Part shown: in pieces, positions 1,169 through 18,266 of the stretch
How the letters are laid out: each line of letters starts with the position of its first letter
Numbering within the stretch: the stretch's first letter is position 1
Source of the DNA: Halobellus litoreus
GTDB taxonomy: Archaea; Halobacteriota; Halobacteria; Halobacteriales; Haloferacaceae
NCBI RefSeq assembly: GCF_024464595.1
Contig: NZ_JANHAW010000001.1
Span: 1,381,083-1,445,082, forward strand
Direction: 5' to 3'
DNA: 64,000 nucleotides
Notes under the pieces: model-generated
Told to the model about the DNA's origin: nothing
Database searches by the model: none
What the model saw: the letters and a program-made list of their open reading frames with translations, nothing else
Position numbers and translations under genes: made by a program

Positions 1169-4100
1169 GTGCGCGACGACGACGAGCGGTACTTCGAGCG
1201 GATCGAATCCCGACTCGACGAGGCGTTCGAACGCGCCGAACGCGCGAAGGGGATGGGCTACGACCCCGAACCCGAGGTCGAGATCCCCGTGGCGAAGGAC
1301 ATGGCCGACAGGGTGGAGAACATCCTCGGGATCGCGGGCGTCGCAGAGCGCGTCCGGGAACTCGAAGGCGAGATGTCCCGCGAGGAGGCCGCTCTCGAAC
1401 TCGTGACCGACTTCGTCGAGGGGACCGTCGGCGACTACGAGGGCCGCGCGGGGAAGATCGAAGGCGCGGTGCGGACGGCGGTCGCGCTCCTCACCGAGGG
1501 CGTCGTCGCCGCGCCGATCGAGGGGATCGATCGCGTGGAGATCCTCGAAAACGACGACGGCACCGAATTCGTGAACGTCTACTACGCGGGACCGATCCGC
1601 TCGGCGGGGGGCACCGCCCAGGCCCTGTCGGTGCTGGTCGCCGACTACGCCCGGTCGCTGCTCGGCATCGACGAGTACGACGCGCGCACGGTGGAGACCG
1701 AGCGGTACGCCGAGGAGATCTCGCTGTACGACAAGGAGACCGGCCTCCAGTACTCGCCGAAGGATAAGGAGACGAAGTTCATCGCCGATCACATGCCGAT
1801 TATGCTCGACGGCGAGGCCACCGGCGACGAGGAGGTCTCGGGCTTCCGCGACCTCGAACGCGTCGACACCAACAGCGCGCGAGGGGGGATGTGCCTCGTT
1901 CTCGCGGAGGGAATCGCGCTGAAGGCCCCGAAGATCCAGCGCTACACCCGCGGCCTCGACGAGGTCGACTGGCCGTGGCTCCAGGACCTCATCGACGGGA
2001 CGATCGGCAAGTCGGACGCGGAAGCCGAGGCCGCCGACGCCGAGAGTGCGCCAGACGAAGCCGACGAAGAGTCGGCGGCGGACACCGAGAGCGAAGACGG
2101 GGGGAGCGAGAACGATGGTGGGGAGGAAGCACCGGACAACGCCGACGAACCCGCGGGACCGCCCCGGCTCGACCCGTCGACCAAGTTCCTCAGAGATCTC
2201 ATCGCCGGCCGGCCCGTGTTCGGGCACCCGAGCGCCGAGGGCGGCTTCAGGCTTCGGTACGGCCGCGCGCGCAACCACGGTTTCGCGACCGCCGGCGTCC
2301 ACCCGGCGACGATGCACCTCGTCGACGACTTCCTCGCGACCGGGACGCAGATCAAGACCGAGCGACCGGGCAAGGCCGCGGGCGTCATCCCCGTCGACTC
2401 CATCGAGGGGCCGACGGTCCGCCTCGCGAACGGCGACGTCCGGCGGATCGACGACCCCGCGGAGGCCCTGGAGGTCAGAAACGGCGTCGAGAAGATCATC
2501 GACCTCGGCGAGTACCTCGTGAACTTCGGCGAGTTCGTCGAGAACAACCACCCGCTCGCGCCCGCCTCCTACGTCTACGAGTGGTGGGTCCAGGACTTCG
2601 CGGCCGCCGGCGCGCCCGTCCAGGCGCTCGAAGACGACCCCGCGGTCGACCTCGAACACCCGACGCCGGCGGAGGCCGAGCAGTGGGCCACCGAGCACGA
2701 CTGTCCGCTGCACCCCGACTACACGTACCTCTGGCACGACGTCTCGGTCGAGCAGTTCGAGGAACTGGCCGACGCCGTCGCTGACGGCCGCCTCGTCCCC
2801 AGGGCGTCCGACGGGGGCGTCGCCGACGCTGACGGCCCCGCCGGAGGCCCCGCAGCGAGCGGGAACGCAGCGATCGAGGACCGCGCCGTCCTCGAACTCG
2901 CCAACGCGGAACCGATCGCGGAGACGCTCGAACGCCTGCTCGTCGAGCACACGCAGAGCGGCGAGACGATCCGAGTGCCCGAGTGGCGGCTGCTGGTCCG
3001 CTCGCTCGGGTTCGCCGTCGACGGGGCCGAGTCGGGATCGGTCGACGACGATACCGTCGCGCGCCCCCGACTCGACCGGACCTGGGGACCGAGCGACCTC
3101 TCTCCGGCGGCCCGCGAGTGGGACGACGGCGAGAGCGCCATTCGGGCCGCAAACGAGGTCGCGCCGTTCGAGATTCGCGAGCGCGCGCCGACCCGCATCG
3201 GCAACCGGATGGGCCGCCCCGAGAAGTCGGAGTCGCGCGACCTCTCTCCCGCGGTTCACACGCTCTTCCCGATCGGCGAGGCCGGCGGGAGCCAGCGCGA
3301 CGTCGGCGAGGCCGCCCGCGGCAGAGACGAACAGGGTCGACGCGGCGTCGTCGACGTCCGCGTCGGCGACCGAGTCTGCCCCGACTGCGACGCTCACACC
3401 TACCGGACGACGTGCCCCGACTGCGGGGCGCACACCGAACCGCACTACGAGTGCGAGGAGTGCGGACAGGTGATCGAACCCGACGATTCAGGCCGCGTCC
3501 ACTGCGACCGCTGCGACCGCGACGTCACCAGCCCCGACTGGTTCTCAATCGACGTCGGCGAGGAGTACCGCCGCGCGCTCGAGACGGTCGGCGAGCGCGA
3601 GTCCGCCTACGAGATCCTGAAGGGCGTCAAGGGGCTGACCTCCGCGGACAAGACGCCCGAACCGATGGAAAAGGGAGTTCTGCGCGCGAAGAACGGCGTC
3701 ACCTCGTTCAAGGACGGCACGGTCCGGTACGATATGACGGACCTCCCCGTCACCGCCGTCCGCCCGTCGGAACTCGACGTGACCGCCGCGGACTTCCGCG
3801 AGTTGGGGTATCAGACCGATATCGACGGCGAGCCCCTGGAGTTCGACGACCAACTGGTCGAGTTGAAGGTCCAGGACATCGTCCTCTCGGACGGCGCGGC
3901 CGAGCACATGCTCAAGACCGCGGACTTCGTCGACGACCTCCTCGAACAGTACTACGGGCTCCCGCCGTTCTACGAGGTCGATGAGCGCGAGGACCTCGTC
4001 GGCGAACTCGTCTTCGGGATGGCCCCGCACACCTCCGCTGCGGTCGTCGGCCGCGTCGTCGGCTTCACCTCCGCGGCCGTCGGCTACGCGCATCCGTACT

Positions 4101-4876
4101 TCCACGCCGCGAAACGGCGGAACTGCGATGGCGACGAAGATTGCGTGATGCTGCTGATGGACGGCCTGCTGAACTTCTCGAAGCAGTACCTTCCCGACAA
4201 ACGCGGTGGTCAGATGGACGCACCTCTGGTGATGTCCTCGCGCATCGACCCGAGCGAGATCGACGACGAGGCGCACAATATGGACATCGTGCGGCAGTAC
4301 CCCCGTGAGTTCTACGAGGCCACGCTCGAACTCGACGACCCCGAGGCCGTCGAGGACCTGATTCAACTCGGCGAGGACACCCTCGGCACCGACGAGGAGT
4401 ACCGCGGGTTCGATCACACCCACGACACCTCCGACATCGCGCTGGGTCCGGACCTCTCCGCCTACAAGACGCTCGGATCGATGATGGACAAGATGGACGC
4501 GCAACTGGCGCTGTCGCGGAAGCTCCGCGCCGTCGACGAGACTGACGTCGCAGAGCGCGTCATCGAATACCACTTCCTGCCGGATCTGATCGGGAACCTC
4601 CGCGCATTTTCGCGACAGGAGACGCGGTGTCTCGACTGCGGCGAAAAGTACCGAAGAATGCCGCTGACGGGCGATTGCCGCGAGTGCGGCGGCCGTGTCA
4701 ACCTAACGGTTCACCAAGGATCGGTGAACAAGTACATGGACACCGCGATCCACGTCGCCGAGGAGTTCGGCTGCCGCGAGTACACCAAACAGCGGCTGGA
4801 AGTGCTCGAAAAGAGCTTAGAATCCGTGTTCGAGAACGACAAAAACAAGCAGTCAGGGTTTGCGGACTTTATGTAG
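1169..4876 (+). CDS. polC: DNA polymerase D large subunit DP2
   Basis: This is the catalytic subunit of the archaeal replicative D-family polymerase (1235 residues), which pairs with DP1, encoded at 35381. The chain opens with the conserved YFERIESRLDEAFERAERAK segment. A long acidic insertion occupies about residues 275-330. Zinc-knuckle cysteines cluster near 736-790 and again near 1154-1178. The catalytic acidic centre NCDGDEDC is at residues 985-992. No intein interrupts it, although many haloarchaeal homologues carry one. The GTG start follows the PPC gene by 2 bp. The C-terminus KQSGFADFM resembles the end expected for DP2, including the terminal region that binds the sliding clamp. Confidence 0.97.
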   Translation: MRDDDERYFERIESRLDEAFERAERAKGMGYDPEPEVEIPVAKDMADRVENILGIAGVAERVRELEGEMSREEAALELVTDFVEGTVGDYEGRAGKIEGAVRTAVALLTEGVVAAPIEGIDRVEILENDDGTEFVNVYYAGPIRSAGGTAQALSVLVADYARSLLGIDEYDARTVETERYAEEISLYDKETGLQYSPKDKETKFIADHMPIMLDGEATGDEEVSGFRDLERVDTNSARGGMCLVLAEGIALKAPKIQRYTRGLDEVDWPWLQDLIDGTIGKSDAEAEAADAESAPDEADEESAADTESEDGGSENDGGEEAPDNADEPAGPPRLDPSTKFLRDLIAGRPVFGHPSAEGGFRLRYGRARNHGFATAGVHPATMHLVDDFLATGTQIKTERPGKAAGVIPVDSIEGPTVRLANGDVRRIDDPAEALEVRNGVEKIIDLGEYLVNFGEFVENNHPLAPASYVYEWWVQDFAAAGAPVQALEDDPAVDLEHPTPAEAEQWATEHDCPLHPDYTYLWHDVSVEQFEELADAVADGRLVPRASDGGVADADGPAGGPAASGNAAIEDRAVLELANAEPIAETLERLLVEHTQSGETIRVPEWRLLVRSLGFAVDGAESGSVDDDTVARPRLDRTWGPSDLSPAAREWDDGESAIRAANEVAPFEIRERAPTRIGNRMGRPEKSESRDLSPAVHTLFPIGEAGGSQRDVGEAARGRDEQGRRGVVDVRVGDRVCPDCDAHTYRTTCPDCGAHTEPHYECEECGQVIEPDDSGRVHCDRCDRDVTSPDWFSIDVGEEYRRALETVGERESAYEILKGVKGLTSADKTPEPMEKGVLRAKNGVTSFKDGTVRYDMTDLPVTAVRPSELDVTAADFRELGYQTDIDGEPLEFDDQLVELKVQDIVLSDGAAEHMLKTADFVDDLLEQYYGLPPFYEVDEREDLVGELVFGMAPHTSAAVVGRVVGFTSAAVGYAHPYFHAAKRRNCDGDEDCVMLLMDGLLNFSKQYLPDKRGGQMDAPLVMSSRIDPSEIDDEAHNMDIVRQYPREFYEATLELDDPEAVEDLIQLGEDTLGTDEEYRGFDHTHDTSDIALGPDLSAYKTLGSMMDKMDAQLALSRKLRAVDETDVAERVIEYHFLPDLIGNLRAFSRQETRCLDCGEKYRRMPLTGDCRECGGRVNLTVHQGSVNKYMDTAIHVAEEFGCREYTKQRLEVLEKSLESVFENDKNKQSGFADFM

Positions 4877-5148
4877 GACCGTATTGCATCGGGGCCTCAC
4901 GCCGTCTCCGGCGACGCTCGATCCCGGCGAAAAAAATCTGCGCCAAAAATATCGCTCGCTCGGCCTCCGGCCTCGCTCGCGGTAGAATATCTCGGAGATC
5001 GGGAGTCGAGAATTATGCAGAAGCATTGGTTTCACGTCTATTTGTGGCGAATTAGCGGCGGGAGAGACTGCGCTGATGCGGGGTAAGGAGTCGTGGTACC
5101 TCGACCCTCGCAAGGGTTATCCCTCACTCTACCTTCTGTCTGTTTGTA

Positions 5149-5355
5149 ATGGCAAACGGTAAGGTTGATTTCTTCAACGACACAGGCGGCTACGGTTTCA
5201 TCTCGACTGACGACGGCGACCTCGACGACGACGAAGACGTGTTCTTCCACATGGAGGACGTCGGCGGCGAAGACCTCACGGAAGGTACCGAGGTCGAATT
5301 CGACATCGAGTCCTCGCCCAAGGGACCCCGCGCGGCGAACGTCGTCCGGCAGTAA
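5149..5355 (+). CDS. cspA: Cold-shock domain protein
   Basis: This 68-residue protein is a single cold-shock OB-fold that binds single-stranded nucleic acid and acts as an RNA chaperone. RNP-1 appears as GYGFIS (about residues 14-19) and RNP-2 as VFFHM (about 31-35). The acidic stretch DDGDLDDDEDVF is typical of halophilic versions. The N-terminus MANGKVDFFNDTGGYGF matches haloarchaeal family members closely, so the ATG is secure. It stands alone, with no gene on either side within 270 bp. Confidence 0.95.
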   Translation: MANGKVDFFNDTGGYGFISTDDGDLDDDEDVFFHMEDVGGEDLTEGTEVEFDIESSPKGPRAANVVRQ

Positions 5356-5718
5356 TACCGAGACGAACCTGTCGCTCACGGCGACAGACACCGATCTCGA
5401 CTTTTCGACGGTTACACGCCCGAGCTTATGCTATCCGTACACTCCGTACTGGTGGATTCATACGAATAGCGGTGTGCCCCTTCTCTGCCCGCGTCTGCGG
5501 AAACTGTTCTTTGCCGGCTCTGTTGCGGTACTCGATCGGTGATACGTTTCAGCAGGTGTGCTGAATACAGGGCGCGTATCTCGCATAGGGCCTCTTCACC
5601 CCACTGCGGCCCAGACTATTCACGAGAGACCACACACGGCCGCGTCTCCGTTGGTTGGCTCACTCCTGTTCCCACCAGATAACCTGGTAGATTAAGCGAT
5701 CGATTCTCGGAAGTACTG
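5356..5718. other. Intergenic stretch with one inverted-repeat copy
   Basis: No gene is apparent between the cold-shock gene and the transporter terminus. The only notable content is one copy of the 54-bp inverted repeat at 5517-5570. Confidence 0.5.
5517..5570 (+). repeat. 54-bp inverted repeat, copy A
   Basis: The reverse complement of this segment matches 7797-7850 at 52 of 54 positions. The two copies bracket the BCCT transporter gene. Copy A read on the minus strand and copy B on the plus strand both encode the same peptide fragment, LYSAHLLKRITDRV, so the repeat may derive from coding sequence of a lost mobile element. That origin is inference. Confidence 0.85.
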
Positions 5719-7464
5719 TTAGTCATCACTGGGTGAGGGTTCGCCGTCATCGATGTCGATGACGACGCTGCCGTCGTCCTCAATTACGAGGGATCCACGG
5801 TCGTCAAGCCGTTCCATCCACTCGGCGAATTCGTCGGACTCCATAATCCGGAGTTCGTTGCCCAGACCCACGTAGACCGTGTAGCACATCAACAGCAGGA
5901 CGAAGGTAAAGGGAAGTCCGGCGGTGATCGAGGCGGTTTGAAGCGCGTCCAGTCCCCCGCCGATCAGCAGGACGGCGGCGATGACACCCTCGATGACCGC
6001 CCAGAAGACCCGCTGGGCGGTCGGAACGTCGTGTTTACCTCCGGAGGTCAGGTGATCGATCACGAGCGATCCAGAATCCGAGGAGGTGACGAAGAAGGTG
6101 ACTACAAGGACGACTGCCAGCACCGACAGGGGGATTGCCAGTTGGAAGTACGAGAACATTTCGTAGATAGCGGTCGCGACATCGGCGTTCACCGCCGCGA
6201 CGAGCGATCCACCCGTTTCTAATTCGACGAACAGCGCCGACCCGCCAAACGTAGACATCCAGAAGAACGAAAACAGCGTCGGTACAATAAGGACGCCAAG
6301 CACGAACTCTCGGACAGTCCTGCCCCTCGAGATGCGGGCGATGAACATCCCGACGAACGGTGACCAGGAGATCCACCAGCCCCAGTAGAAAATCGTCCAG
6401 CCGCTCTGCCAGGAGTTCCCGCCGCCAGTTTGACTCCAGAACGCCAGCTCCGGCAAGGCGCCGATATAGGTGCCGAGGCTCGTGACGAAATTGCCGAGGA
6501 TGTACAGCGTCGGGCCGACAATGAGCATCAATCCGAGGAGCGTCACCATTAGAAAGACATTGAACTCGCTGAGTCGCCGCACGCCGCCGTCGAGCCCAGC
6601 CGCCACCGACAGCGTCGCAATGGCCGTGATGACTCCGATCAGGACCACCTGAATCCAGACCCCTTGCGGGATGCTCGTCGGGAGGAACTGCCCGGAGAGC
6701 GTCGTGAGGCCGGCGTTGATTTGCTGGACGCCGATGCCAAGCGACGTCGAGAGCCCGAACAGTGTCGCGATCACCGAGACAATGTCTATTACGTGGCCGG
6801 GCCAACCGTAGATGCGCTCGCCCAGCAACGGCCAGAAGATCGACCGGAAGGTCAGGGGCAGGCCGCGGTTGAACGAGAAGAAGGCCAGACCGAGACCGAC
6901 GAGTGCGTAAATTGCCCACGGGTGGATGCCCCAGTGAAAGAACGTGGTAGCCATCGCGGCCCCGCCAGCCACGGCGCTCCCACTCTGAACCCCGTCGAAA
7001 AATGGCGGCACGGACCCGAAATGAAAGATCGGTTCAGCCACGCTGAAGAACATAAGCCCGATCCCCATACCGGCGCTGAACAGCATCGCGACCCAGGAAA
7101 AGTCCGAAAACTCCTTGTCTGCCTCAACGCCCCCGATCCGAATAGCCCCGTACTTGCCAAGTGCAAAGTACAGAACGACGATAATGAAGATGTTCACTGA
7201 GAGGATGTAGAACCATCCTGCGACAGCGGAAATCCCGGTCTGGATCGCATTGAACACCCCCGCAGACTGCGATCGGAAGATCAGCGTGACTGCGATGAAG
7301 AGCGCGATCACAAGGCAGGAGATAGGGAACACCCGCGAATGAACGTCGACTCCGAAGACCTGGACGTTCATATCCCCCGTTTCCCGATCAGTATCCGGGT
7401 GGAACAGTTCAACCTGGAGCCCCTCTGAAGTCGCCCCGACGGCTTCGTCGTCAGGTGAGGACAT
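5719..7464 (-). CDS. BCCT family betaine/choline-type transporter
   Basis: This 581-residue membrane protein belongs to the betaine-choline-carnitine transporter family, which imports trimethylammonium osmolytes with Na+ or H+. In a halophile this points to uptake of glycine betaine. Twelve hydrophobic segments are visible. Family signatures include GMGIGLMFFSVAEPIFHF in the early part and WWISWSPFVGMFIARISRG in the middle. The ATG at 7464 is preferred because GGAGGAAC lies just upstream; an in-frame start at 7560 would add 32 residues without family similarity. The last 45 residues are acidic and cytoplasmic. The gene lies alone between two 54-bp inverted repeats, suggesting past mobility. 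Confidence 0.92.
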   Translation of the reverse strand: MSSPDDEAVGATSEGLQVELFHPDTDRETGDMNVQVFGVDVHSRVFPISCLVIALFIAVTLIFRSQSAGVFNAIQTGISAVAGWFYILSVNIFIIVVLYFALGKYGAIRIGGVEADKEFSDFSWVAMLFSAGMGIGLMFFSVAEPIFHFGSVPPFFDGVQSGSAVAGGAAMATTFFHWGIHPWAIYALVGLGLAFFSFNRGLPLTFRSIFWPLLGERIYGWPGHVIDIVSVIATLFGLSTSLGIGVQQINAGLTTLSGQFLPTSIPQGVWIQVVLIGVITAIATLSVAAGLDGGVRRLSEFNVFLMVTLLGLMLIVGPTLYILGNFVTSLGTYIGALPELAFWSQTGGGNSWQSGWTIFYWGWWISWSPFVGMFIARISRGRTVREFVLGVLIVPTLFSFFWMSTFGGSALFVELETGGSLVAAVNADVATAIYEMFSYFQLAIPLSVLAVVLVVTFFVTSSDSGSLVIDHLTSGGKHDVPTAQRVFWAVIEGVIAAVLLIGGGLDALQTASITAGLPFTFVLLLMCYTVYVGLGNELRIMESDEFAEWMERLDDRGSLVIEDDGSVVIDIDDGEPSPSDD

Positions 7465-7571
7465 CGACCTGTTCCTCCGGAGCGAATTGCCGTCGGGAAC
7501 ACCTCCGTCTAGCCGTGTTGCGTCGGCCGAACACTCTGTTCCCGATTTCCCGTGCCGCAACCGGGTATGGG

Positions 7572-7590
7572 TGGCTACCTGCGGTAGCCA
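7572..7590. promoter_or_regulatory. 8-bp dyad upstream of the BCCT gene
   Basis: TGGCTACC-TGC-GGTAGCCA is a perfect inverted repeat with a 3-nt spacer, about 110 bp before the transporter start codon and just inside the AT-rich promoter tract. It could be an operator or an RNA hairpin in the leader. Confidence 0.4.
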
Positions 7591-7796
7591 GGTGAATAGC
7601 TAGGTATTTGCTAACATATACCATCCAGAATATTGTTGTCGTATTGATAATAGTCTTTCGCTGAGCGACAGTGATCACTGACTGGATCCGAAGCAGCGAG
7701 GTATCTCGTGTCGGGCAAAGATTCGAGCTCAGCGAACCGACTCAGAAGTCGGTTGAGTGGACAACAGATACTGGGAAGCCCTGCTGGACTCAGCCT

Positions 7797-7850
7797 CTGT
7801 ATTCAGCACACCTGCTGAAACGTATCACCGATCGAGTATCGCAGCAGAGC
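7797..7850 (-). repeat. 54-bp inverted repeat, copy B
   Basis: This is the partner of 5517-5570, in the opposite orientation, with two mismatches near its right end. Similarity stops sharply on both sides. The distance between copies is about 2.2 kb and the enclosed cargo is the BCCT gene. Confidence 0.85.
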
Positions 7851-7872
7851 CTCTGTGCCGCATTTCAGGACC

Positions 7873-8040
7873 TCACGGAAGGTAGGTCGCCAAGACGTTC
7901 ACGAGGCGGTCGATCCGTGAGTTGAGTTCGCTCTTTTCGTCTTCGTCGTCGCTACCGGACGTCGTAACACGACCGTCGTCACAGGTGTCAAGACCTACTG
8001 CCGCGCTGCGCGCCGTCTCGGCCCGAAAATCGGACGGCAC
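7873..8040 (-). CDS. Possible small or truncated protein
   Basis: A 55-residue frame with a GTG start lies immediately downstream of the sulfatase-like gene on the same strand. Its C-terminal half, DEDEKSELNSRIDRLVNVLATYLP, looks like an acidic coiled-coil protein end, while the N-terminal half looks less convincing. It could be a small genuine protein, or the surviving tail of a larger gene damaged when the neighbouring repeat-bounded segment arrived. I do not recognise a family. Confidence 0.3.
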   Translation of the reverse strand: MPSDFRAETARSAAVGLDTCDDGRVTTSGSDDEDEKSELNSRIDRLVNVLATYLP

Positions 8041-8044
8041 CCCG

Positions 8045-9598
8045 TTACTCCAGATATCCGAGGTCGCGAAGCCGCTCCTGCGCCTCGTCGTCCATCTCGT
8101 CGACCGCGTCGTCGGAAACGTCGTCGTCGAGGGCGTCCGTCCACGCGCCGCCGACTGCGGATTCGAAGGCCGCGAGCGTCGCGTCGGCTTCCTCGATCGC
8201 GGGGTCGTCACCGGCGGCGACGTTCTCCGTTTCGCCTGGATCCTCGTCGAGTCGGTACGCCTCGTCGTCGATCCGATCGATTCGGACGTACTTGGCGTCG
8301 GTCCGGCGCGCGGCCCGCATCCGCGAGTAGTACCGCGAATCGCTGGGAAGCGTGATGCCGGCGGCGGCGGCCTTTTCCTCCAGTTGGTTCAACTCGACGA
8401 CGGGACGGGAGTACTCGACGAACGCGTACTCGCCGTCGCCGCGCTGTCCGGGATCGCGAGCGGCGTCAGCGAGGCCGTTGAACGTTCGATACGAATCGGA
8501 GACGAGCGATCGGGTCCGATCGAGGGCGACGACCTCGTCGTCGGGGTCGGCCGGCGTCCCGCCCTCGACGTCGAGCGTGTCGAGGACGGTGTGATACAGG
8601 TCGAGCAGTTCGACCTGGTCCTCGCGTCGATCGGCGTCGAGGGCGGGGTGTTTGACCAGCAGCGGAACGTTCACCAGTGGTTCGTACAGACAGAACTCGT
8701 GGCCGTAGAGGTCGTGCTCGCCGTGGAGTTCGCCGTGGTCGGCGCAGACGACGACCATCGTGTCGTCCCATCGCCCTTCCGCTTTCAACCAGTCGAAGAG
8801 GCGGCCGAGCTGGTCGTCGATGTGGGCGATCTCGGCGTCGTACAGCCCGCGGATATCGTCCCACTCGTCGGCGTCGATGTCGCGGGCCCCCGAGTTGTAC
8901 TCCTTGGAGTTCTGACACACCTCCGTCGAGTCGACGCCGGGGGCGAACTCCTCGGCGAACTCCTCGGGCGGGTGGTACGGGAGGTGGGCGTCCATCAGGT
9001 TGATGAACGCGAACGATCGGTCCGCGTCCTCGATGAACGACTGCGTCCGATCGATCACGGCGGGCGTCTTCGAGTCCGCGCTGCCGCCGCCGGCGAAGTA
9101 CTCGTGGGCGGTGTTACCGAGGCTGACGAGTTTGTCCGCGACGGCCCGGAGCGCCTCGTTGTCGTTCATCGTCTTCCACGCGCGGGCGAGGGGACCCGAG
9201 AGGAACTCCCCGGGCATCACCTCGAAGAAGTTGTCCTGATCGTCGAATCCGTCGGTCAGGTGCGTGTAGGGCGTGATCCAGGCGTTCGAAGAGTAGCAGG
9301 CGGTGTCGTAGCCGGCGGTCGAAAGCGTCTCCGCGAGCGTGGTCGCCCCCTCGAGGTAGGGGTTCTCCTGGTCCGCGCCGTGGCGAGAGGGGTACATCCC
9401 CGTGAAGAGCGAGGCGTGAACCGGGAGCGTCCACGGCGCGGGTGCGACGGCCTGCTCGAAGACGGTGGCCTCTTCGGCGAACGCCGCGAGGTTCGGCGTC
9501 GTCGGCCGGTCGTACCCGTACGGCGTGAGTCGGTCCTTTCGAACCGTGTCCATCACCACGAAGAGAACGTTCTCGGGTGATTCGGTAGTCATACTCAC
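8045..9598 (-). CDS. Sulfatase-like hydrolase
   Basis: This 517-residue protein belongs to the alkaline-phosphatase/sulfatase superfamily. The N-terminus NVLFVVMDTVRKDRL carries the first metal-binding Asp. The nucleophile region is APWTLPVHASLFTG, with Thr57 where true sulfatases have Cys or Ser that becomes formylglycine, so a phosphodiesterase, phosphotransferase or other sulfatase-like role is as likely as sulfate-ester hydrolysis. The later metal site VVVCADHGELHGEH is intact. No signal peptide or membrane segment is seen, so it acts in the cytoplasm. MSMTTES offers two starts six bases apart. The length is normal for the family. Confidence 0.88.
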   Translation of the reverse strand: MSMTTESPENVLFVVMDTVRKDRLTPYGYDRPTTPNLAAFAEEATVFEQAVAPAPWTLPVHASLFTGMYPSRHGADQENPYLEGATTLAETLSTAGYDTACYSSNAWITPYTHLTDGFDDQDNFFEVMPGEFLSGPLARAWKTMNDNEALRAVADKLVSLGNTAHEYFAGGGSADSKTPAVIDRTQSFIEDADRSFAFINLMDAHLPYHPPEEFAEEFAPGVDSTEVCQNSKEYNSGARDIDADEWDDIRGLYDAEIAHIDDQLGRLFDWLKAEGRWDDTMVVVCADHGELHGEHDLYGHEFCLYEPLVNVPLLVKHPALDADRREDQVELLDLYHTVLDTLDVEGGTPADPDDEVVALDRTRSLVSDSYRTFNGLADAARDPGQRGDGEYAFVEYSRPVVELNQLEEKAAAAGITLPSDSRYYSRMRAARRTDAKYVRIDRIDDEAYRLDEDPGETENVAAGDDPAIEEADATLAAFESAVGGAWTDALDDDVSDDAVDEMDDEAQERLRDLGYLE

Positions 9599-15032: not shown

Positions 15033-15683
15033 ATGCCAATCATCACCAGAGTGTACTTTTCGCACCCGGATATGGCACTGGCGAACGTTATCTCATCTCT
15101 TCCCGAGGTAACCATTCGCGTGCTACAGGAAGTGAGCACGGATCCGGTTAGCGACACCTCGTTTTTCGTTCTCGAAACCGATCGAATCGAGATCCTCGAA
15201 CACGAACTGGCCGCGGATCACACCGTCGAGGACGCTCAGCAGGTGTCACGGTACGAGGGCTGGCCCGTGTACAGCATCGAGTTCACCCCCGAAACGCTGC
15301 TTCTGGGATCGGTTGTGACCGAGCACAACGGATTCGCACTCGCGGCGCATCAGCACGACGGTGGATGGATCGAACGTTGGCAGCTGCCGGGTCGAAGCGC
15401 GCTCCAGTCCGTCTGGGAGTACGCGAACGACCAGGCGTTCGAGTTCGAGATACGAACGGTACGCGAGATATCAAACAGTACCGACATACACGGGACAGGA
15501 CTGACAGAGAAACAAAAAACCACACTGATACACGCGTACAATAACGGGTATTTCCAAAAACCAGCCGAAATAACACTCGAAGAAATCGCCGACGATCTCG
15601 ACATTTCGATGAATGCTGCCAGCGGTCGAATCAAGCGTGGGATGAGAAATATCATTGAATCAGCTATCAAAGATATCGAATAG
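15033..15683 (+). CDS. bat-type helix-turn-helix regulator
   Basis: This 216-residue protein belongs to the haloarchaeal bacterio-opsin-activator-like family. Residues 1-145 form the sensory domain typical of the group, and residues 155-212 form the HTH_10 DNA-binding domain, with LTEKQKTTLIHAYNNGYFQ followed by ITLEEIADDLDISMNAASGRIKRG as the helix-turn-helix. Codon use is less GC-biased than in neighbours, in keeping with the AT-richer surroundings. No sensor domain such as PAS or GAF is fused. The target genes cannot be inferred. Confidence 0.88.
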   Translation: MPIITRVYFSHPDMALANVISSLPEVTIRVLQEVSTDPVSDTSFFVLETDRIEILEHELAADHTVEDAQQVSRYEGWPVYSIEFTPETLLLGSVVTEHNGFALAAHQHDGGWIERWQLPGRSALQSVWEYANDQAFEFEIRTVREISNSTDIHGTGLTEKQKTTLIHAYNNGYFQKPAEITLEEIADDLDISMNAASGRIKRGMRNIIESAIKDIE

Positions 15684-15703
15684 CTAAATGGCGGTGTACA
15701 ACT

Positions 15704-15726
15704 TGGTCCGGTACTGGCGGCTGATC
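15704..15726. repeat. Imperfect inverted repeat, right arm
   Basis: This is the partner of 14771-14798, lying 20 bp after the regulator stop codon. Together the arms enclose about 0.95 kb including the whole regulator gene. Confidence 0.5.
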
Positions 15727-15750
15727 TACCGCTTAAGTAGATTCGAATAA

Positions 15751-15796
15751 ATACCAATTTCTGCCTATTTATAATATATAAAATAAAATTTGGTAT
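15751..15796. terminator. AT-rich dyad between convergent genes
   Basis: ATACCAA at 15751 pairs with TTGGTAT ending at 15796 across an AT-rich loop rich in T and A runs. It lies between the converging regulator and DHH genes and could terminate either transcript. Confidence 0.4.
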
Positions 15797-15972
15797 ACGC
15801 AAAAAGCGTTGGATATTTGTTATGTCTGGATTCAGGTGGCAGGACTATCGGTCGACGGTGAGTGCATCGGCCTCGGGCGGCGTCGACCGCACGCGAGTTT
15901 GTCCACGGTCGCGGCGTCCGAGAGAACAGAAGGTCTTGCAGCCCTATCATCGACCGAGAAGGACCGGCGGCC

Positions 15973-17424
15973 TCAGTCGAGTTGCTCGCCGACGAGCCGG
16001 TCCGCCTCGGCGACGAACGCCTCCCGCGTTCCGGTCGGAATCGTCGCGCCGGCGGCCACGTCGTGTCCGCCGCCGTCGCCGCCGACGGCGCGGGACGCTT
16101 CGCGCATCACCGCAGAGAGGTCCAATCCGTCGCGGACGAGCGCGTGCGAGCCCCGGGCGCTCACTTTCACCTCCTCGTCGGACTTCTCGGCGAACGCGAG
16201 AATGGGAATGTCGCCGCGGATCCCTGAGGCCCCGACGGCCATTCCCGCGACGATACCGACGATGGTCTCGCGGATCCGCGATCCGGCGTCGAACCACTGG
16301 ACGTCGTCCTCGACGGTCGTCCCCTCGTTTTGGACCCACTGTAACCCCTCCGAGAGGTTGCGCCGGTGATTCCGGAGGAGCGTCCGCGCGCGGTCGAGGG
16401 CCTTCTCGCGGTCGCCCAGACAGACCGCGAGACCGACGTCCGCCCGCTCGTAGCGTGCGGTGGCGTTCAGGAGCGTCGAGAACTCCGAGACGTCTCTGAG
16501 TTCGGTTCCGGGAGCCTCGTCGGTCAGCGTGTACGTGGTTCCGACGAGCGAGTCGATCCGATCGGCCGGGACGCCCGACGCGATCGCCCGCTGCAGGAGG
16601 CCGCTGACGAGCGCCTGTCGTTCGTCCATCGTGAGGTCGACCCAGCGACGCCACTCGCCCCCGTCTTTCAAGTCCAGATCGAGGTTCGAGAGGAACTCGA
16701 TCGCCCCGTTCTCGTCGTTCGTGATCCCCGGGATTCTGACGTCGGTCGCGTATTCGAGGAACTTCGGGAGCGGCCGGGTCTGCCGGCCGTAGACGAGCAG
16801 ATCCGTGGCCTCCTCGACGACGCCGGCGGCGACGCCCTCCTCGACGATGCCCTGGTTCGCCCCCGAGAGGCCGCCGTCGGTGCCCTGCATATCGCCGACC
16901 GCCCCGACCACGGCGAGGCCCGCGAGGTCCCGGTTGTCGCCCTCGGGTGGTTCGAGCGCCCGCGCGAGGACGTAGCTCGCCCCCGCCCCGGAGAGTTCTG
17001 ACGCGCCGTCGAGACCGAACAGCAGCGGGTTCAGGTGGTGGGTCGGTTCGTCGACGCCGTCCGGCAGGTCGGCGGGTTGGTGGTGATCGGCGACGACGGG
17101 CGTGAACGCGCCGTCGGCCGCGTAGGGCGCGATGACGTCCAACTGGCCGCTGCCGAAGTCGGTGAAGAGCACCGTCTCGTGATCGGTGGCGGCGATACGC
17201 GCGACCTCCCGCTCGTCGAGTTGCTTCGCGAAGACGGTCTCGAACGGGATCCCCGCGCGTTCGAGTGCCGCGGCCGCGATCGCCGCGCTCGTCAGGCCGT
17301 CGGCGTCGATGTGCGACGCGAGCAACACGCGGTCGGCCGCTCGCAGTCGGTCTGCGCAGGCGACGGCTCGGTCCTGCAGGTCGGGGACCGGCGCGTCGGC
17401 ACTCGTCGTCGTGTCTGCGCTCAT
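15973..17424 (-). CDS. DHH family phosphoesterase, RecJ-like
   Basis: This 483-residue protein has the DHH catalytic domain. HIDADGLTSAAI (about residues 38-49) carries motif I, LFTDFGSGQLD motif II, and VADHHQPAD (about 112-120) the DHH motif III; HHLNP and VVGAVGD follow as metal-site segments. The C-terminal DHHA1-like domain ends with GGDGGGHDVAAGATIP, the glycine-rich substrate-binding motif. Haloarchaea have several RecJ-like paralogues; some act as 5'-3' single-strand exonucleases and one binds the GINS replication complex. Which one this is cannot be decided from sequence alone. Confidence 0.9.
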   Translation of the reverse strand: MSADTTTSADAPVPDLQDRAVACADRLRAADRVLLASHIDADGLTSAAIAAAALERAGIPFETVFAKQLDEREVARIAATDHETVLFTDFGSGQLDVIAPYAADGAFTPVVADHHQPADLPDGVDEPTHHLNPLLFGLDGASELSGAGASYVLARALEPPEGDNRDLAGLAVVGAVGDMQGTDGGLSGANQGIVEEGVAAGVVEEATDLLVYGRQTRPLPKFLEYATDVRIPGITNDENGAIEFLSNLDLDLKDGGEWRRWVDLTMDERQALVSGLLQRAIASGVPADRIDSLVGTTYTLTDEAPGTELRDVSEFSTLLNATARYERADVGLAVCLGDREKALDRARTLLRNHRRNLSEGLQWVQNEGTTVEDDVQWFDAGSRIRETIVGIVAGMAVGASGIRGDIPILAFAEKSDEEVKVSARGSHALVRDGLDLSAVMREASRAVGGDGGGHDVAAGATIPTGTREAFVAEADRLVGEQLD

Positions 17425-17501
17425 ACCCGAGCGTGGGGCGTTCTCGGATTTAAACCTACGTTCGAGCGGGGGGAGAAACGCAACCGCAGGGCCCCGGTGA
17501 C

Positions 17502-18266
17502 TTACTCGTGGTACGTCGGGGCGGCTTCCTCGACGACGGCCGTCGCGAGTTCCTCGAAGGTCGCGTTCGCGGGGACGACGTCGACCCGGATCCCGTATCC
17601 TTCGGCCGTCTCACGAGTCGGTGCGCCGATGACGCCGACGACGGCCCGGTTCAGGCCCGAGATGGCCTCCTCGCGGACGCCGCGCTCGGCGGCGGCGGCG
17701 AGAAAGTTCTCGACCGTGAGCGAGGAGGTGAAACAGACGGCGTCGAGTTCGCCGCCCGCGGCCATCACCGTCGACTGCCCGGCGCCCTCGGGACGGACGA
17801 GACGGTAGAGGACGGTCTCGTGGACGTCGGCACCGGCCTCACGGAGGCCGTCGAGGAGCACGTCGCTCCCGTGGTCGCTCCGAGCGACTTCGACGGACTC
17901 CCCGTCGACGTCGCCGTCGAGTGCGGCGACGAGGCCCGCGGAGGTGTACTCCTCGGGGACGACGTCGACCGTCCAGCCGGCGTCGCGGGCGGCGTCGGCG
18001 GTTCGCGGGCCGATGCAGGCGAGCGCCGCGTCGCCGGGCGTCCAGTCGGCCGCCGCGAGGAGTTCGACGCCGGTCTTGCTCGTCAGGACGACGACAGCGG
18101 GGTCGTCCGACGAGTCGGCACCGGTCTCGGGGACCGCGCCGGTGGGCTCGACCGCGAGCATCGGATCGGGGATCGGACTCGCGCCGAGGGAGTCCAGCAG
18201 TTCGACCGCGCGCGCCATCCGCTCGTCGTCCGGGCGGAAGACAGCCACGCGAACGTCTCGGGTCAC
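17502..18266 (-). CDS. hemD: Uroporphyrinogen-III synthase
   Basis: This 254-residue protein closes the linear tetrapyrrole hydroxymethylbilane with D-ring inversion to make uroporphyrinogen III, the branch point of haem, sirohaem and cobalamin. It has the two alternating alpha/beta subdomains of the family. Conserved VVVLTSKTGVELL, ACIGPRTADAARDAGW, ETVLYRLV, and AVCFTSSLTVENFL are visible. The GTG start overlaps the stop of cobA by 4 nt (GTGA), so it is translationally coupled as the last gene of hemC-cobA-hemD. Confidence 0.92.
   Translation of the reverse strand: MTRDVRVAVFRPDDERMARAVELLDSLGASPIPDPMLAVEPTGAVPETGADSSDDPAVVVLTSKTGVELLAAADWTPGDAALACIGPRTADAARDAGWTVDVVPEEYTSAGLVAALDGDVDGESVEVARSDHGSDVLLDGLREAGADVHETVLYRLVRPEGAGQSTVMAAGGELDAVCFTSSLTVENFLAAAAERGVREEAISGLNRAVVGVIGAPTRETAEGYGIRVDVVPANATFEELATAVVEEAAPTYHE

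Follow-up and report, generated by a model that had tools for sequence, protein, structure and literature searches.

Our analysis of a 64-kb stretch of the Halobellus litoreus genome (the window, to whose positions all unprefixed coordinates refer) indicates that 5516-7851 is very probably a single non-autonomous transposon of the type called a mobile insertion cassette (MIC), with a BCCT transporter gene as its passenger, and that an IS5-family transposase likely mobilized it in trans. The 2336-bp inserted element has the ends of a transposon and a flanking duplication, is absent from a relative, holds a foreign passenger under purifying selection and has transposase-bearing relatives. In the model that we favor, a DDE transposase recognizing the tips would have inserted the element between two convergent host genes through a staggered cut of 8 bp. 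The transposase was likely of the IS5 family and acted in trans; open genes for enzymes of this kind lie elsewhere in the same genome, in elements with similar tips and 8-bp duplications. Transfer between genera would have taken place inside the element, and its passenger may serve in osmolyte uptake. The site is laid out as follows.

5149-5355, plus strand: cold-shock domain protein, the host gene to the left of the insertion (Pfam CSD, 64 bits)
5508-5515: left copy of the 8-bp target duplication, TCTTTGCC
5516-5580, plus strand: left end, type A, with the tip GGCTCTGTTG, the shared motif TGCTGAATACAG and then GGCGCGTATC (profile match positions 1-65; the same type occurs in other elements)
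5719-7464, minus strand: passenger, an intact BCCT family transporter of 581 aa (Pfam BCCT, 607 bits; TIGR00842; dN/dS against its homolog in genome G167)
7465-7796: region upstream of the BCCT gene, within the passenger segment (spanned by the DNA homology to G167)
7770-7851, minus strand: right end, a hybrid, matching the left arm over its outer 55 bp and then divergent (compared by eye with other elements)
7852-7859: right copy of the 8-bp target duplication, TCTGTGCC
8045-9598, minus strand: sulfatase family protein, the host gene to the right of the insertion, conserved in relatives (Pfam Sulfatase, 150 bits; 94% identical in genomes G088 and G089)

The initial annotation had described a sharp-edged inverted repeat of 54 bp enclosing the transporter and nothing else. 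The repeat and its edges are real, but its size and limits need amending: the arms occupy 5516-5570 (plus strand) and 7797-7851 (minus strand), are 55 nt long and agree at 53 of 55 positions, the other inverted pairs listed for the 4.5 kb analyzed being no longer than 30 nt and no more than 83% identical. At the outer edge, alignments begin at most two bases from the GGC tip in 28 of the 31 fetched loci that match the left end; at the inner edge, the arms stop where two end types part, beyond the shared motif TGCTGAATACAG. The transporter is indeed the sole convincing gene between the arms, which also enclose about 330 bp upstream and about 140 bp downstream of it. A profile of the end detected no third copy in the 64-kb window, and tblastn with two IS5 transposases as queries found no IS5 transposase inside the element. 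A target-site duplication, which had been proposed as something to look for, is present in the form of two flanking 8-mers equal at seven of eight positions, so good a match having a chance rate of 0.0013 among random 8-mers from these flanks. The G+C content of the element is 58.3%, against 66% in the 4-kb flanks.

Fifteen relatives were fetched around the neighboring sulfatase gene, one of which (G089) allowed an empty-site comparison. There, window positions 3801-5480 and 7864-8599 align to almost adjacent places, and the flanks joined without the element and without one 8-bp copy align over the junction, though a one-base gap is needed and about 25 bases there are poorly conserved; the alignment therefore establishes the absence of the element and does not fix its borders to the base. 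G089 has neither the BCCT gene nor either arm. In the other 14 relatives, alignment of the spacer failed to cover both sides close to the site, and among the matches listed from a profile search (E up to 1) none of the 15 had the element end. One may ask whether the arms are instead two independent insertions of a short repeat, a MITE or solo end, that chanced to flank a resident BCCT gene. Lone ends do occur, as do short A/B-ended elements without ORFs (L051, 524 bp; L175, 354 bp), but a single 8-bp duplication spans the whole unit, G089 lacks the gene together with both arms, the unit, like other complete elements, combines both end types, and the gene itself is foreign to the genus; we regard such a coincidence as very improbable indeed.

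What is the origin of the passenger? Read from its ATG, the BCCT protein scores 479 bits against TIGR00842 (cut-off 408), which places it in the BCCT family, and 539 bits against the glycine betaine equivalog NF047988, below the cut-off of 650; among relatives of solved structure, the top match (513 bits) is a trimethylamine transporter. A resident BCCT of 60-67% identity is present in every one of the 16 other genomes of the genus covered by the search. The closest BCCTs among 167 genomes of the family are those of G167 (89%), G165 and G074 (77%) and G041 (75%), and a tree of 38 proteins places the window BCCT with copies from other genera, joining it to that of G167 (100/99) and then to those of G165, G074 and G041 (100/100), apart from the resident copies of the genus. 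Judged by these relationships, the passenger is foreign to its genus. Between the window and G167 genes, dN is 0.05-0.06 and dS 0.35-0.55, values indicating that the gene has been kept functional by purifying selection. The initial annotation had envisaged transfer or amplification of the transporter. Transfer by a mobile element agrees with the flanking duplication, the empty site in G089, the foreign composition, the BCCT grouping and the occurrence of the same ends on transposase-bearing elements; amplification finds no counterpart in the genome, which has one copy of this BCCT and four other BCCT matches of 30-63% identity, the 63% one on another contig.

Arrival of the BCCT gene by homologous recombination or in a larger island, with the ends unrelated to the event, is very unlikely. 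Such a route would suit the frequent exchange of DNA among haloarchaea and the scatter of the window BCCT clade, found in 5 of the 167 genomes; it sits poorly with the coincidence of the foreign segment and the element borders, the DNA homology to G167 covering 5612-7802, inside the element, and the G089 alignment resuming at 5480 and 7864.

It is conceivable that the BCCT gene of G167 was once borne by an element too. Against its left flank, the A consensus gives an alignment of 72 columns with about 46 identities, and the score of this alignment is reached by none of 1000 shuffles and by 13 of 1000 stretches taken from the fetched loci, in which real ends occur. The window's own left end aligns to this flank at chance level (606 of 1000), the left A trace was absent from the output of the profile search, and the A/B traces at the two homology borders score 16.9 and 17.5, below the best background of 17.2 and 17.9. 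Taken together, the traces are suggestive of a decayed element of the same kind. The BCCT relatives in G165, G074, G041 and Halomicrococcus had no clear ends. Adjoining the G167 homolog (L166, 5972-7071), a lipoprotein-like gene is bordered by a weak trace of type A on one side and an end of type B on the other.

The arrangement of the ends recurs elsewhere. Inspection by eye of ten transposase-less loci (the window, L035, L045, L050, L051, L135, L175, L177, L193 and L204) showed each to pair an end of type A (TGCTGAATACAGAGCGCGTATC or a near variant) with an end of type B (GTGCTGAATACAGAGGNTGTATTCAGCACG or a near variant, palindromic); L138, inspected likewise, is without this arrangement. 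In other elements the two types differ mostly between positions ~20 and ~45. The right end of the window element is unusual, with an A-like outer 55 bp and a B-like inner part, and one of the ends inside L035 (4959) looks similar. This hybrid structure explains why the arms are so alike and yet have a sharp inner edge; conversion of one end by its counterpart, extending as far as the shared motif, may have produced it. The window tips read GTTGCGGTAC, as against GTTGAAACCC in relatives, and a tip pattern that matches 12 tips in the same genome (0 in the reversed control) misses both ends of the window element, which the transposases now present may thus not recognize. Together with the mismatch in the duplication, the departure of the tips from the consensus points to an old insertion. 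On contig C1 of this genome, two loci about 67 kb apart (L135, 1063, and L136, 3137) have in common an end and 12 bases outside it (TTCTGTTTTAGA), as though one end, flank included, had been copied or else split by a rearrangement.

How widespread are these ends? Of 170 genomes of the family, 109 (the genome studied here among them) match the 70 bases at the left end, a figure that counts genomes and not copies, with at most five candidates scored per genome. Dispersal of the repeat with no link to mobile genes had been named as an outcome that would speak against a mobile element; the repeat is dispersed, but as the end of IS5-type transposons. We fetched 71 regions (582 kb, mostly picked for holding an end) and considered facing tip pairs 80-7000 bp apart. 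Flanking 8-mers were equal at seven or eight positions in 17 of 244 pairs (12 exactly), against one hit in total over six shifted offsets in the control. These 17 are not all independent, since L188 repeats L050 from the same genome and L193 is counted twice for nested pairs. Four of the 17 contain an IS5-type transposase; none was found in the remaining 13, as in the window element. Pairs without a duplication (227 of 244 here and 428 of 447 in the transposase survey below) are in many cases unrelated tips. L050 and L188 (G013, contig C2, 256917 and 38430) are copies of a single 701-bp element with identical 8-bp duplications, either a duplicated segment or an assembly matter. At L193, the facing pairs 4931-7108 and 5290-7045, each with an 8-bp flank match, surround one 483-aa ORF, apparently one element inside another.

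Passengers of the transposase-less elements include a transporter, a sensor kinase, a rhomboid protease, a zinc protein and HTH-type proteins. The kinase, of 847 aa, is carried by L177, the protease with two further ORFs by L204, and a DUF7344-like protein, slightly under the Pfam cut-off, by L045; L050 and L193 gave no Pfam match, and L051 and L175 have no ORF of at least 80 aa. The zinc protein, of DnaJ type, belongs to a second such element with cargo in the genome of the window (L135), 950 bp long with a duplication equal at seven of eight positions.

Candidate helpers are at hand in the same genome, where six transposase matches were found, two of which are uninterrupted open frames of full length. 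A 2711-bp IS5-type element on contig C4 (L137, 1510-4220) encodes a transposase and a 423-aa protein, has the exact duplication GTTCCAGC, and sits in a multicopper oxidase gene, which it splits; when it is removed with one 8-bp copy, a single frame of 502 aa results, as against a longest frame of 338 when both copies are kept. At L139, 1483-3080 holds a transposase and has the exact duplication ATTCTGCC, and 15600-18018 holds a 434-aa ORF and a transposase and has no duplication.

Scanning contigs of 84,980 species with the L137 transposase gave 64 loci, in which 19 of 447 facing pairs had flanking 8-mers equal at seven or eight positions (17 exactly; one control hit over six offsets); one of them, L220, had already appeared as L052 in the 71-region set. 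All 19 elements, from 1211 to 6286 bp long, contain the transposase or part of it (L271 a fragment only, L243 and L252 a match in two pieces, L263 a match over 390 bases only), and in 18 the match begins 52-54 bp inside the left tip. By reading, 14 of the 19 have a further non-transposase ORF of at least 100 aa, an ORF being no proof of a gene; L232 and L252 carry what we take, from their motifs, to be further transposase genes, and these elements may therefore be nested. Pfam scans of passengers, covering nine of the 19 elements and L246 and leaving out L232, L263, L269 and L271, put names to those of seven: GrpB (L215), archaeal pilins (L216, L220), an amine oxidase (L219), a periplasmic binding protein (L243), BAT-domain and DUF7344 proteins (L244) and MgtE (L252). 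The passengers of L218, L227 and L246 had no Pfam match.

The far end of these elements, opposite the transposase gene, is of the window-left type A in, for example, L215, L216, L218, L219, L220, L227 and L243, and of another type in L240, L247, L249 and L269. This position also bears on the peptide LYSAHLLKRITDRV, which the initial annotation took for a possible vestige of a transposase: the stretch is the conserved end itself, and since that end lies on the far side from the transposase gene, a vestige is not a tenable reading. The transposases of three relatives score 210-220 bits against the IS5-family model NF033579 (cut-off 140), and the relatives' transposase is 70% identical to a protein annotated as belonging to the ISHla2 family. 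IS1595/ISH4 was rejected as a source of the ends, PF12762 having no match in the genome, and IS6, of which we had presumed the GGC..TGTTG tip to be suggestive, was dropped once the IS5-type transposase was found. More distant transposase relatives, at 47-55% identity, come from Candidatus Bipolaricaulota MAGs (L254, L273) and an uncultured bacterium (L275), through transfer or binning error.

A widespread repeat that contains the palindrome TTCAGCA/TGCTGAA might also be a cellular signal, such as a terminator, a regulator site or a REP-like sequence, and no transposon end at all. We give this hardly any credence: folding z-scores of five ends are mixed (-2.9, -1.5, -3.8, -0.3 and -3.5), while paired ends are flanked by 8-bp duplications, removal of the L137 element restores a gene, and the transposase gene lies at a fixed distance from the opposite tip. 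The duplications refute a cellular signal as the sole explanation, though the ends may have a regulatory role in addition. Returning to the transposon, we raise with some reservation the possibility of a wider system, in which transposase-less elements would form a family, each built from two fixed and distinct end modules (A, of about 65 bp; B, a tip plus palindrome) around changing passengers, and IS5-family transposons that also carry passengers and have the A end in common with them would mobilize these elements in trans. Passengers might then pass from one kind to the other, which would amount to a widespread gene-shuffling system of haloarchaea.

How does the window element compare with known systems? 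It has the inverted repeats of a transposon, a passenger gene and a target-site duplication, with no transposase inside, as expected of a MIC. The IS5-type DDE transposase of an IS5 insertion sequence is found in its relatives and not in the element itself; a MITE would be short and non-coding, unlike 2336 bp with a 581-aa gene; and a composite transposon would have two complete insertion sequences at its borders, where this element has ends of only about 55-80 bp. MICs are known in bacteria, where, as the accessible text of PMC3913671 describes them, a passenger lies between inverted repeats with no transposase and a target duplication, and movement in trans is thought to occur. MIC231 of Bacillus cereus and the mic element with qnrD share the structural traits with the window element, for which movement in trans is likewise proposed; however, IS231 belongs to the IS4 family in bacteria, whereas the element described here occurs in a haloarchaeon and has an IS5-type related transposase, two distinct end types and an 8-bp duplication. 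IS231 elements that bear a transposase along with additional DNA encoding diverse passengers (PMC2266710, accessible part) resemble our transposase-bearing relatives in that combination, which here involves the IS5 family and archaea.

Among archaeal elements, the ISHla2-like IS5 elements of haloarchaea have a transposase like that of the relatives, but the window element is without one, and the relatives carry passengers. Haloarchaeal MITEs have been described, one with a likely coding ORF (PMC3119063, accessible part); those of Haloquadratum, including the ISH2-type HqIRS32 with its ORF, are about 520 bp or shorter, in contrast to the 2336 bp and the full transporter gene of the window element. 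The accessible text of PMC6563490 lists passenger-carrying transposons as undetected in archaea, that of a MITE review (PMC10969869) contains neither the word 'passenger' nor 'cargo', and the matches listed from our literature search, which comprised titles and the starts of abstracts with subscription journals mostly uncovered, included no description of passenger-carrying IS5-type haloarchaeal elements. Elements with 8-bp target duplications, with and without a transposase, occur in several haloarchaeal genera and offer a concrete vehicle for haloarchaeal gene exchange. A transposon of Halorubrum lacusprofundi with the passenger gene Hlac_3088 (PMC10544981, accessible part) is, by its description, likewise haloarchaeal and passenger-carrying, and with similar gene-carrying transposons in related archaea, genes may be shuffled in this way more often than has been noticed.
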